NCBI GenBank assembly: GCA_905234655.1
Contig: CAJOJG010000017.1
Location: forward strand, 38,762 to 102,761
Length of the DNA stretch: 64,000 nucleotides
Source: an uncultured Bacteroidales bacterium
GTDB lineage: Bacteria > Bacteroidota > Bacteroidia > Bacteroidales > UBA3824
Direction of reading: 5' to 3'
Positions 35,642 through 40,816 of the stretch are shown piece after piece. A program made the position numbers and the translations under genes. The notes under the pieces are model-generated. The model was given only the letters and a program-made list of their open reading frames with translations. It made no database searches and was not told where the DNA came from. Numbering within the stretch: position 1 is the stretch's first letter; every line of letters begins with the position of its first letter.

Positions 35642-36286
35642 TTACCCTCCAATCCCCAATTCCTTCACGTAACGCCTCATCCGGGACACTGTAAGTTGAC
35701 CGGGCGCAGTGCCGTCGCCGTAGTCCGAGGCGACGTATGTGAACTTTGCGCCACATCCAAGCGACGCAAGCCTCGAAATCTGACCCAACGTCCCCATGCC
35801 AAACGCCACAATCCCATCGCCTTCGCCATACAGCGACATCAAGGTTGAATTGTCGGCGGGAGAATTGACCTTACAGGCTATTTTCACAATATCCGCACCG
35901 CGTCCACGGCACTCGGAAATGATGGAGTCCAAATCTGAACGCGACGGTGTGAGGTCAAAATTATGGTATGAAATTATCAACTTGCACTTTGTGCCGTTGC
36001 AGGCGGACTTCATTCGGGCGGCGACCTCCGCGCCGCGCTCTATCTCGACATCAATATAGTCCGCGCCACATTGTGCGGCGGTCACGAGATATTTTAACGA
36101 AGCCTCCTCGTCGAAAACTCCCGGTCGGCACGTCACGATATAACTCACGTCCCTTTTTGAGAGCAAGTCCTTCATCTCGGCCACCGTAGGACGCACAAGG
36201 TCAACGCGCAATTCGGCGCACTTCTCGTCGCCAAGTTGGCGGAGGGCGTTACCGACACCCTCCGCCGACAAGCATACGTACAACAT
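35642..36286 (-). CDS. aroD: Type I 3-dehydroquinate dehydratase
   Basis: ELRVDLV, YIDVEIERG, LIISYHNFDLTPS, DIVKIACKVNSPADN, FTYVASDYGDGTAPGQLTV. Confidence 0.88.
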   Translation of the reverse strand: MLYVCLSAEGVGNALRQLGDEKCAELRVDLVRPTVAEMKDLLSKRDVSYIVTCRPGVFDEEASLKYLVTAAQCGADYIDVEIERGAEVAARMKSACNGTKCKLIISYHNFDLTPSRSDLDSIISECRGRGADIVKIACKVNSPADNSTLMSLYGEGDGIVAFGMGTLGQISRLASLGCGAKFTYVASDYGDGTAPGQLTVSRMRRYVKELGIGG

Positions 36287-36305: not shown

Positions 36306-37364
36306 CTAACCGTTGAGGACTTTTGTCTGGACGTTGACCGACGCATCGTGGATGGCGGAAAATACCTGAGCCACAAAATTCTCGTCCAAGTCGCGTTCCT
36401 TCGCCATGCCGACGTATTTTGTGAGGATGGAGTCCCAACGCGACGGCTGATAGACAGTCATGTTGTTGGCCTTCTTGTACTCGCCAATCTTCACGCACAC
36501 ATCCATGCGCTTGCGGAGCATGTTGATGATTTCGGTATCCATCTGGTCGATGTGGAAACGCAATTCATTGAGGGATTCCTTGGACGCAGTCTCGGGGTCT
36601 ACCTTGCGGACAACGAGTTTGCCGAGCATTTCCTTGAGCGCGGCGGGTGTGAGTTGCTGCTTTGCGTCGCTCCAAGCCTTGTCGGGGTCGATGTGGGATT
36701 CAATCATGAGACCGTCAAAATTCAAGTCCATCGCCTTCTGTGACAAGTCGAAGAGGTATTCACGCTTGCCAGCGATGTGGGACGGATCGCAGAACAGCGG
36801 CAAGTCCGGGCGGCGACGCTTGATTTCCATGCCGATTTTCCAGCCCGGCTCATTGCGGTAGAGAATCTTCTCGTAACTTGAAAATCCCCTGTGAATCAGA
36901 CCAATCTTGCTGAGTCCGACAGATTCGAGGCGTTCTATCGCGCCGAGCCAAAGTTCAACGTCGGGGTTGACAGGATTTTTGACCAAGACTGGAATATTAC
37001 AGCCTTTGAGGCTTTCAGCAATGTCCTGCATCATGAACGGATTGGCGGTTGTACGCGCACCAATCCAAATGATGTCGATGCCGCCCTTGATGGCCGACCA
37101 CACGTGTTTCGCATTGGCAACCTCGGTGGCGGTCAACATGCCGGTCTCGCGCTTCACATCCTGAAGCCATTCAAGGCCGACTTCGCCCACGCCCTCGAAG
37201 TTGCCCGGACGTGTGCGCGGTTTCCAAATTCCCGCCCTGAAAACCTTGATGCCATTAGCCGCTAATTGGCGCGCTGTTTCCAATGTCTGTTCTTTTGTCT
37301 CGGCAGAACAGGGACCCGATATTATCCACGGCTTGTCACCGAAGACTTCTTCAAAATATTTCAT
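36306..37364 (-). CDS. Bifunctional DAHP synthase / chorismate mutase
   Basis: KPWIISGPCSAETKEQTLETARQLAANGIKVFRAGIWKPRTRPG...FCDPSHIAGKREYL plus C-terminal chorismate mutase LRFHIDQMDTEIINMLRKRMDVCVKIGEYKKANN. Confidence 0.93.
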   Translation of the reverse strand: MKYFEEVFGDKPWIISGPCSAETKEQTLETARQLAANGIKVFRAGIWKPRTRPGNFEGVGEVGLEWLQDVKRETGMLTATEVANAKHVWSAIKGGIDIIWIGARTTANPFMMQDIAESLKGCNIPVLVKNPVNPDVELWLGAIERLESVGLSKIGLIHRGFSSYEKILYRNEPGWKIGMEIKRRRPDLPLFCDPSHIAGKREYLFDLSQKAMDLNFDGLMIESHIDPDKAWSDAKQQLTPAALKEMLGKLVVRKVDPETASKESLNELRFHIDQMDTEIINMLRKRMDVCVKIGEYKKANNMTVYQPSRWDSILTKYVGMAKERDLDENFVAQVFSAIHDASVNVQTKVLNG

Positions 37365-37498: not shown

Positions 37499-38341
37499 TC
37501 ACTTCAACACTTTCCTGATGCGGTTCGCATTGTTGACGTAATCCATCATGCCCTTGATGTCGTCGTTGACGAGAAGTTGCTTGAAGTTCTGAAGTTTTTC
37601 GATGTAGGTGCCGAGTACGTCGAGGACGTTGTCCTTGTTGTTGTCGAAGATCGGCACCCACATCTCGGCGTTGCTCTTGGCAAGGCGCACCGTCGATGCA
37701 AAACCGCCCGAAGCAAGGCTGAAGATGTTTTTTTCGTTGCGTTCCTTGTCCAAGACCGTCTGCGCCAACGCAAACGAGCATACGTGCGACAGGTGCGACA
37801 CATACGCCACGTGGACGTCGTGGTTGAAGGAATTGAAAAACATGGTGTTCATGTTCAATACCTCAAACATCCTTCGCGCCGTCTTGACAGCGTCTTCGTC
37901 GGAATCTTCGGAATCGCAGATTATCAACGCCTTGCCGTCGAACATTCCTGAAATTGCAGACCACGGCCCCGAATTTTCCGTTCCCGCCATCGGGTGGCAG
38001 GCGACGTAGCGGCGGCGGCGGCTGTGTCCCTTGACGCGCTCGCAGATTGTGCCCTTGGTGGAACAGATGTCGATTACAATCTGGTTGTCGTTGATTTTGT
38101 TGAGGACGTCGGGCAAAATCTTGATGGCCGCGCTCACCGGGACGGCGATTACGACGATGTCGCCTTTGCTGATGGCTTCGTCCATCGTACATTCCTCGTC
38201 GATAAGCCCCACTTGCTTGGCGTATCCCTGGCTCACGGGGCTGAGGTCGTAGCCAAAAATCTCGTCGGCGAATCCGCGTTTCCTGAGGTCCAGCGCGAGC
38301 GACCCGCCCAAAAGTCCGAGTCCAATTATTGAAAGTTTCAT
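37499..38341 (-). CDS. tyrA: Prephenate dehydrogenase
   Basis: MKLSIIGLGLLGGSLALDLRKRGFADEIFGYD...DICSTKGTICERVKGHSRRRRYVACHPMAGTENSGP. Confidence 0.9.
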   Translation of the reverse strand: MKLSIIGLGLLGGSLALDLRKRGFADEIFGYDLSPVSQGYAKQVGLIDEECTMDEAISKGDIVVIAVPVSAAIKILPDVLNKINDNQIVIDICSTKGTICERVKGHSRRRRYVACHPMAGTENSGPWSAISGMFDGKALIICDSEDSDEDAVKTARRMFEVLNMNTMFFNSFNHDVHVAYVSHLSHVCSFALAQTVLDKERNEKNIFSLASGGFASTVRLAKSNAEMWVPIFDNNKDNVLDVLGTYIEKLQNFKQLLVNDDIKGMMDYVNNANRIRKVLK

Positions 38342-38408
38342 TTTTTGTATTTTGTTTTCTACGTTAATTACTTTTCTTTTGCACGACCGCCTTGCGGCGG
38401 CCTAATTT

Positions 38409-38516
38409 TTTCTAAACAGAAATTTTCGTCAATTTGACCGTCAATTTTCGTCAATTTTTTTGTCAATTACGTTTATTAATTGACGGTAATTGACGAAAAA
38501 ATTGACGGTAATTTTC
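38409..38516. repeat. Iterated-word inverted repeat between pheA and tyrA
   Basis: CGTCAATT x3 (+ TGTCAATT) followed by AATTGACG x3 within ~105 bp. Confidence 0.8.
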
Positions 38517-38519
38517 GTT

Positions 38520-39365
38520 TTAATCATTGTGCATCTGTTCCCACGATTTTGAGCCTTCCATGTACTCGCCGAGGATGTGTATCTTGTTGAGCAACGGGCG
38601 GATGGCGGTAATCATGCCGTTGTACATCCGCTGGTCGTCAAACTTGACATCGACGTAAAACATGTACTGCATCGGCTGTCCCATTATCGGCATGGATTCC
38701 ACTTTGGTCAAATCGACGTTGTAGTACGACATCACGCTGAGTATCTGGGCAAGGCTGCCGACCTTGTTTTTGAGGACGAGGTTGAGGGAAGCCTTGTTGA
38801 AGGTTTCGAGGCCGCTGTCCATCGCGTTTTTGACGACCATGAACCGTGTGTAGTTTTTCTTGAAAGTCTCGATGCCGGGGGCGATGATTTCGAGACCGTT
38901 GGCCTGGGCCGCAAGCTCGCTGCCCACCGCGCCCAATGTCCTGTCGCCGCTCTCTGCCACCTGGCGCATTCCCAGGGCGGTGTCGGCGCACTCGGCGAGT
39001 TTGATGTGGGGGTACTGGCTGAAAAACTGCCTTGTCTGGTTGATTGCCATATAGTGGCTGCGCACTTCGCGCAGGTCTTCTATCTTGACGCCGGGAAGGA
39101 CGGCGAGGTTTTGCCTTACGCGCAGGAATATCTCGCCGCAGATGCGCACTTCCTTGCGGCGCAGAAGGTTGAGGTTGGCGTGGATGGTGCCGGCAATCGT
39201 GTTTTCGATTGCGATGAGGCCGTAGTCGTTTTCGCAATTCTCGACGCTGTTGAGCACTTCTTCAAACGACATCTTTTCCACGATGTCGATGTCCCTGCCG
39301 GCGAAATACTCGCGGGCAGCCACCTCGTGGAACGCGCCTTTCACTCCTTGTATCGCTACTTTCAT
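38520..39365 (-). CDS. pheA: Prephenate dehydratase (with ACT domain)
   Basis: MKVAIQGVKGAFHEVAAREYF...YGLIAIENTIAGTIHANLNLL...LNLVLKNKVGSLAQILSVMSYYNVDLTKVESMPI. Confidence 0.93.
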   Translation of the reverse strand: MKVAIQGVKGAFHEVAAREYFAGRDIDIVEKMSFEEVLNSVENCENDYGLIAIENTIAGTIHANLNLLRRKEVRICGEIFLRVRQNLAVLPGVKIEDLREVRSHYMAINQTRQFFSQYPHIKLAECADTALGMRQVAESGDRTLGAVGSELAAQANGLEIIAPGIETFKKNYTRFMVVKNAMDSGLETFNKASLNLVLKNKVGSLAQILSVMSYYNVDLTKVESMPIMGQPMQYMFYVDVKFDDQRMYNGMITAIRPLLNKIHILGEYMEGSKSWEQMHND

Positions 39366-39387: not shown

Positions 39388-39420
39388 AAAAAAGCCCCAC
39401 CCTATCTCTAAGGTGAGGCT
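39388..39420 (-). terminator. Attenuator terminator upstream of pheA
   Basis: Minus strand AGCCTCACCttagagatagGGTGGGGCTTTTTT. Confidence 0.88.
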
Positions 39421-39457
39421 CGTGCATCTTGTCTTTTTGTTGCCTTAAAACATAGAA

Positions 39458-39529
39458 TTACCGCCTCACCTCGTCGCCAAAGTAAGCAAAGTAAAACGCA
39501 TAATAATATGTTCCGAATTTTGTATTCAT
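39458..39529 (-). CDS. Phe/Tyr-rich leader peptide of the pheA attenuator
   Basis: MNTKFGTYYYAFYFAYFGDEVRR*; 9 of 23 residues are Phe or Tyr; 3' end overlaps antiterminator segment GGTGAGGC. Confidence 0.88.
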   Translation of the reverse strand: MNTKFGTYYYAFYFAYFGDEVRR

Positions 39530-39537
39530 CGTGGCTG

Positions 39538-39545
39538 CAAAGTTA
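39538..39545 (-). promoter_or_regulatory. -7 element (TAACTTTG) of the leader transcript
   Basis: TAnnTTTG match just upstream of the leader ATG; no convincing -33 TTTG. Confidence 0.5.
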
Positions 39546-39758: not shown

Positions 39759-39883
39759 GGCTTTTTAAGTTTCTGCAAATGTAACGTGTTTTTCTTATTT
39801 TCCTAAATTCTACATACATTTTTTTGCACATTATCCTATCCCCCCAAAAAAATCCTTACCTTTGCACCCAAAAAATAAAAAAA

Positions 39884-40816
39884 ATGCTAAAAATTACTGG
39901 CAAATTCCCCTTCCACTTGCTTGCCTTGATGGTGGCGTTAGTGTGGGGCTCAACATTCGCGTCGAGCAAGGTGTTGCTCAATGCCGGGATGTCGCCGGCG
40001 GAAATAATGACCATCCGATTTGCCGTGGCGTACTTGGCGATGCTGCCGTTTTGCTGGAAGAGCGTGAGATTCACGGGCTGGAAAGACGAAATGCTGTTTG
40101 CAGTGCTCGGAATCACCGGCGGGTCGCTGTATTTTCTCACCGAAAACCTCGCCGTCGGCCTTGCCTCAGCGACATCGACAGTAGCCCTCATCGTCTGCGC
40201 CACGCCAATCCTCACCGCCATCGTCAACCGTCTCGTCCTGCGCGGCGAAAGGCTTGGCACTCAATTCCTTGCGGGTTCCATTGTTGCGCTCGTCGGCACG
40301 GCTTTGGTGGTCTTCAACGGCATCTTCGTACTCGACGACAATCCGCTCGTCATAATCCTCAGCCTTGCCGCCGCGCTGTGCTGGAGTTTCTATTCAATAA
40401 CGCTCAAAGTGTTGGAACGCAAATACAGTTCGCTCGACATCACAAGGAAAATATTCTTTTGGGGCGTGCTGACAATGCTGCCGTACTTCCTGTACGAGCC
40501 GTTTGACGTAGATGCGGACACCGTCAGGCAGCCAGTGGTGGCGTTCAACGTGCTGTTTCTCGCGCTCGTGGCGTCGCTCGGATGCTATTTTGCATGGTCA
40601 TACGTGGCAAGGCGGCTCGGCATCGTTACCGCGTCAAACTATCTGTACTTCAATCCCGTAGTGGCTCTCATCACCGCCCACATCGCCCTCGACGAGACGA
40701 TTACAATCTACGCAATCATAGGCTGCGTGGTAACGGTGGCGGGCGTTTACCTCTGCAACAAAAAAATAGCACGATTTCAAAAAAATGTTAACGGATTTGT
40801 ATGGTTTTTGAATTAA
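39884..40816 (+). CDS. EamA/DMT-family transporter
   Basis: MLKITGKFPFHLLALMVALVWGSTFASSKVLLNAGMSPAEIMTIRF..., multiple TM segments, two EamA repeats. Confidence 0.9.
   Translation: MLKITGKFPFHLLALMVALVWGSTFASSKVLLNAGMSPAEIMTIRFAVAYLAMLPFCWKSVRFTGWKDEMLFAVLGITGGSLYFLTENLAVGLASATSTVALIVCATPILTAIVNRLVLRGERLGTQFLAGSIVALVGTALVVFNGIFVLDDNPLVIILSLAAALCWSFYSITLKVLERKYSSLDITRKIFFWGVLTMLPYFLYEPFDVDADTVRQPVVAFNVLFLALVASLGCYFAWSYVARRLGIVTASNYLYFNPVVALITAHIALDETITIYAIIGCVVTVAGVYLCNKKIARFQKNVNGFVWFLN

Follow-up and report, generated by a model that had tools for sequence, protein, structure and literature searches.

A probable ribosome-mediated attenuator of the phe/tyr type upstream of the pheA-tyrA-DAHPS/CM-aroD cluster in an uncultured Bacteroidales lineage

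The region upstream of pheA in an uncultured Bacteroidales lineage, whose closest named relatives are metagenome bins, for the most part from the fore-stomachs of ruminants, very probably specifies a ribosome-mediated, phe/tyr-type transcription attenuator that controls the pheA-tyrA-DAHPS/CM-aroD cluster. This reading, in which we have high confidence, is drawn from sequence comparison and modelled RNA folding; from these we infer that the leader is transcribed, that ribosomes stall within it, that transcription terminates or reads through as a result, and that the four genes are co-transcribed. Positions below are those of the window, that is, the whole 64,000-nucleotide stretch of DNA that was analysed.

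Leader elements and downstream genes

The elements of the leader region lie on the minus strand and are given here in the direction of transcription:

39545-39538, minus strand: -7 box TAACTTTG, of the Bacteroidota sigma-A type TAnnTTTG (direct reading)
39529-39458, minus strand: leader ORF, MNTKFGTYYYAFYFAYFGDEVRR and stop, 23 codons with 4 Phe and 5 Tyr
39514-39507, minus strand: segment 1, GGAACATA, 5' base of the leader (1:2) hairpin
39472-39463, minus strand: segment 2 (A), GAGGTGAGGC, 5' strand of the antiterminator, in the last codons of the leader ORF
39454-39447, minus strand: TATGTTTT, 3' base of the leader (1:2) hairpin, directly past the stop codon
39421-39409, minus strand: segment 3 (B), GAGCCTCACCTTA, 5' arm of the terminator and 3' strand of the antiterminator
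39404-39388, minus strand: segment 4 (C), TAGGGTGGGGCTT and T run, 3' arm and tail of the terminator

Direct reading places the leader ATG at 39529, 8 nt past the -7 box TAACTTTG, the TAnnTTTG consensus for the Bacteroidota box being that given in PMC9723704, and places GGTGAGGC (39470-39463, minus strand) within the last leader codons. The box, the 23-codon ORF with its Phe and Tyr codons and the T-tailed hairpin had all been pointed out in the preliminary description, and all are present on direct reading. Phe and Tyr account for 9 of the 23 codons, an in-frame enrichment that is conserved, and this density is matched by only 1.3% of 298 background small ORFs from the same upstream regions. 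The terminator, GAGCCTCACCTTA-gaga-TAGGGTGGGGCTT-TTTT (39421-39388, minus strand), is a 13-bp hairpin 5' of the pheA ATG at 39365; its fold of -20.5 kcal/mol (z -5.1) is equalled by 0 of 200 shuffles, and it is recovered by a terminator scan in which shuffles yield 0.3. The complementarity previously claimed between the end of the leader ORF and the 5' arm of the terminator holds in the window (shuffle p 0.005), with A (GAGGTGAGGC) pairing to 39419-39410 of the terminator (GCCTCACCTT).

The gene assignments proposed for the cluster are borne out by Pfam and NCBIfam:

38520..39365, minus strand: pheA, prephenate dehydratase, the first structural gene (Pfam PDT, E 7e-52)
37499..38341, minus strand: tyrA, prephenate dehydrogenase (NCBIfam NF006307 above its cut-off, E 3e-103)
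36306..37364, minus strand: DAHP synthase + chorismate mutase fusion (Pfam DAHP_synth_1 and CM_2)
35642..36286, minus strand: aroD, type I 3-dehydroquinate dehydratase (Pfam DHquinase_I)

The gene 5' of the leader runs divergently, and hence the terminator cannot serve it. This divergent gene (39824-40816, plus strand) codes for an EamA-family transporter with weak matches to models of the aromatic amino acid exporter YddG, and its promoter region adjoins that of the attenuator. Between pheA and tyrA there is a 43-nt imperfect palindrome of 22-nt AATTGACG repeats (38414-38524). The repeat unit occurs at 17 sites in the genome (at most 2 mismatches; control 0), and in the close relatives L002-L004, which are without it, the pheA-tyrA gap is only ~30 nt. 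The palindrome is apparently a dispersed repeat inserted within the operon, and its position between the two genes leaves constant co-transcription of tyrA in doubt. Directly before tyrA stands a GC-rich hairpin, GGCCGCCGCAAGGCGGTC (38380-38405, minus strand), without a T run. In the genus member L006 / L134 tyrA starts ~1.2 kb past the end of pheA, and an extra ORF, apparently an aminotransferase and absent from the window, lies between the two.

Alternative pairings and the position of the ribosome

Under the proposed mechanism, a shortage of Phe-tRNA or Tyr-tRNA would stall the ribosome in the Phe/Tyr run and leave A (GAGGTGAGGC) free; A would then pair with B, the 5' arm of the terminator, and transcription would proceed into pheA. 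With both tRNAs charged, the ribosome would reach the stop codon and cover A, whereupon B would pair with C and transcription would end. A leader that is left untranslated would fold upon itself (1:2) and hide A, favouring termination. As the ribosome can stall at codons of either kind, a shortage of Phe or of Tyr should open the switch, and such a response would suit a cluster that makes both amino acids.

The dependence on ribosome position was modelled by folding the nascent RNA ending just past B with the portion behind the ribosome taken out. A ribosome placed on the Phe/Tyr codons is predicted to let the antiterminator form, the freed RNA reaching -23 to -27 kcal/mol (-23.4 at most stalls); with the ribosome on the last Phe codon the antiterminator has -17 kcal/mol, and at the stop codon only -3.2 kcal/mol is left. 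Masking of the leader thus agrees with the switch anticipated in the preliminary description. The antiterminator amounts to about -23 kcal/mol for a ribosome stalled on Phe or Tyr and to almost nothing for one that has reached the stop codon. The same direction of change is predicted at 82 of 87 loci, where the upstream pairing of B at the stall exceeds that at the stop by over 0.3, and the reverse at 0. In the window itself the change is modest: the predicted upstream pairing of B goes from 0.76 down to 0.49 once the ribosome is at the stop codon, because weak AAGGC/GCCTT pairing persists. The antiterminator is slightly stronger than the terminator (-23.3 versus -20.5 kcal/mol) and therefore, once formed, can hold.

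The A:B and B:C helices are maintained among relatives. Outside the genus, 47 of 71 loci have A:B complementarity at p<=0.05 in the shuffle test, with a combined p of 7e-43 in which loci are treated as independent, which they are not; leaders also fit their own terminator arm better than the arms of other genomes (Wilcoxon p 5e-13). Within the genus 94.9% of the cells of the A:B helix are paired, with 6 double-sided changes, including exchanges of UA to CG; for the B:C terminator 97.2% of cells are paired and covariation is weaker than for A:B. A coordinated change is illustrated by the relative L029, in which A is GGGGTGAGGC and B is GCCTCGCCCC. Alignment of relatives, which had been suggested as a check on the element, hence recovers covariation in the genus for A:B and more weakly for B:C, together with conserved Phe/Tyr codons.

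A three-segment switch had been proposed for this leader. Nucleotides within the leader ORF pair, in addition, with the stretch directly past its stop codon: the ribosome-free leader has an MFE of -23.2 kcal/mol (z -2.9) with A hidden in the fold, and the full RNA without a ribosome prefers, in the folding, the leader hairpin plus the terminator. This 1:2 pairing is enriched among relatives outside the genus as a group (combined p 3e-9, with loci treated as independent, which they are not). It was scored by a per-sequence shuffle test and not by a column-wise covariation count, because the helix slides between relatives; the ungapped 1:2 helix test on the window alone is not significant (p 0.22). 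With the MFE fold and the enrichment in relatives, the leader hairpin makes four segments a better reading than three, and the switch is best read as the classical four-segment type, its 1:2 part being less firmly shown.

Conservation, operon content and tandem units

Among pheA upstream regions collected from 100 Bacteroidales genomes, 91 contain a Phe/Tyr-rich leader and 89 a leader with a terminator. Of 27 further loci in a phylum-wide draw, almost all of them in other orders of the class, 20 have the same combination, as do 63 of 78 named loci, the cultured genus Ancylomarina among them. Leader, terminator and antiterminator complementarity, on which the earlier proposal of an attenuator depended, are hence kept in the genus, in the order and beyond. 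Leaders were picked with a lower score for GTG and TTG starts, and some picks in distant genomes are probably wrong (such as the initial hits of L017, L043, L058 and L092, and also L074).

Across the leaders of relatives, Phe and Tyr constitute 42% of frame-0 codons versus 16-18% in the other two frames, and codons for Leu and Ile, which are U-rich too, are rare in frame; the conserved feature is therefore the coding run itself. The peptide sequences vary widely between families, and only the richness in Phe and Tyr is kept. A perfect TAnnTTTG precedes the leader in most relatives. A genome-wide search for the Phe/Tyr pattern, which returned 13 places (the pheA leader and 12 others) against 25 in the control, did not identify a second copy of the switch in this genome.

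The codon content of the leader was set against gene order in 80 genomes, for each of which up to 6.6 kb starting at pheA was taken. DAHPS/CM is found on the same strand in 72 of these, with tyrA in 66 of the 72, and the leaders of this clustered set are mixed, with a mean of 43% Tyr among Phe+Tyr codons. In the other 8, where neither DAHPS/CM nor tyrA was found in the stretch, 4 have Phe-only leaders (0-2 Tyr) and 4 have no leader. The Tyr fraction accordingly stands at 0.43 for clustered pheA versus 0-0.18 for solo pheA (Mann-Whitney p 6e-4, on 8 solo genomes and with kinship ignored). Each of the four Phe-only cases comes from a different family (f95, f19, f29 and f39). The almost pure Phe leaders of these solo-pheA genomes are in the upstream regions L023, L049, L061 and L077, whose downstream stretches are L165, L157, L167 and L193. 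The claim of dual Phe/Tyr sensing is strengthened by this scarcity or absence of Tyr codons at pheA genes that stand apart from DAHPS/CM and tyrA. The pattern fits a codon sensor whose inputs would follow the products of the operon, in a small sample with kinship ignored.

The spacing between the -7 box and the leader ATG is 8 nt in the window, versus about 23 nt in relatives: most genus members have 20-24 nt, and nearly all others 15-64 nt. The suggestion that the leader mRNA is nearly leaderless thus may hold for the window, given the 8-nt spacing, and falls as a feature common to its relatives. The near-leaderless start is plausible but special to this assembly, and is deduced from the promoter box only. 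In B. thetaiotaomicron about 3.7% of mRNAs have a 5' UTR of <10 nt (PMC7366714).

About 14 of the 100 order-level regions carry tandem leader-terminator units (15 were called, and the first unit of L043 looks spurious), and the window itself has one unit only. Two Phe/Tyr units stand in series before pheA at L030, L035, L036, L037, L052, L079, L082, L083, L084, L091 and L095, and tandem units are likewise present at L230-L232 and L269; several Bacteroidales families and the cultured Ancylomarina are included. We hold it somewhat probable that the element represents a class-wide Bacteroidia family absent from Rfam, with a codon mix tuned to the operon, tandem duplication in several lineages and a near-leaderless start in the species of the window.

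Competing explanations, known systems and significance

The leader might sense Phe alone, as a pheL-like attenuator, with the Tyr codons as filler in a U-rich, structure-bearing run. The position of pheA as the first gene and the existence of leaders that are nearly all Phe speak for this; yet Tyr codons occur in 18 of the 18 genus members found, make up 43% of the mix in clustered genomes and are nearly lost at solo pheA, while the other U-rich codons, Leu and Ile, are rare in frame, and we regard sensing of Phe alone as improbable. That the ORF is short, conserved and set at a constant distance from the terminator would also be expected if, as in TnaC, the peptide's own sequence arrested the ribosome on free Phe, Tyr or another ligand, independently of tRNA charging. 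Such an arrest appears highly improbable, given that the peptides diverge widely between families with only their Phe/Tyr richness kept, and that the Phe/Tyr ratio tracks operon content, as a codon sensor predicts.

The element would equally resemble a short terminated transcript if it were a plain terminator or a small-RNA gene with a chance ORF, pheA being transcribed from another promoter. Against this, the upstream gene is divergent, TAnnTTTG is not seen between the terminator and pheA, and the frame of the ORF, its codons and the antiterminator are conserved, so that we give this explanation only the slightest chance. Alternative RNA structures before a biosynthetic gene are likewise what a riboswitch or T-box type element, binding an aromatic amino acid or tRNA directly, would show; here the conserved feature is a coding run and not an aptamer, and an element of this kind has next to no probability. 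It was rejected on Rfam searches without a match at the gathering score. These searches, Phe_leader included, gave no match at the gathering score and none relevant to E 10 around the site, the only hit being an irrelevant one to Spot 42 (E 7).

Attenuation by the translating ribosome, the reading that we favour, is textbook knowledge for pheA in enterobacteria. In the phe operon of E. coli a run of control codons lies within a leader ORF, the RNA can adopt alternative 1:2, 2:3 and 3:4 pairings, and a terminator precedes pheA; the control codons of its pheL peptide are Phe, with no Tyr. The enterobacterial pheL (Rfam Phe_leader) shares with the present element the control-codon leader, the alternative pairings, of which 1:2 is less firmly shown here, and the terminator before pheA, whereas here Phe and Tyr alternate, the cluster makes both amino acids and there is no Rfam match. 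In the thrL (Thr+Ile) and ilv leaders, one leader has codons for several end products of a shared pathway; the multi-amino-acid logic is alike, but the amino acids and genes differ and there is no sequence relation. The two leader ORF/attenuator units in series of Salmonella mgtCBR (PMC3641672) resemble the arrangement in some Bacteroidales relatives, although the signals differ and the window has a single unit. In Flavobacterium psychrophilum and other Flavobacteriaceae, a structured element that has no Rfam hit has been reported 5' of pheA, and the same source gives hints of leader peptide attenuation ahead of operons for amino acids (PMC9723704). This is the same gene in the same phylum, and the same kind of element is found here in other orders of the class; the element as described in the part of PMC9723704 drawn on here comes without a leader sequence, dual Phe/Tyr sensing or a link to operon content. 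Our literature searches did not turn up a dual Phe/Tyr attenuator described for Bacteroidales, and the comparative attenuation paper of Lopatovskaya and colleagues may hold predictions.

Beyond the preliminary description, what the sequences add is the class-wide breadth of the element, the way in which leader codons go with operon content, and the tandem units. The classical form of ribosome-mediated attenuation comes from studies of Proteobacteria. Transcriptome maps have raised the suspicion of it in Bacteroidota, a phylum poor in Shine-Dalgarno sites, but it is, to our knowledge, little described there. A conserved and easily scored switch before pheA would offer a direct test of transcription-translation coupling in Bacteroidota. 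The correspondence between the codons of the leader and the genes of the operon would constitute a natural experiment, in which a dual-input sensor follows the genes under its control. The tandem versions raise the further question, open to test, of how the effects of two such switches combine.
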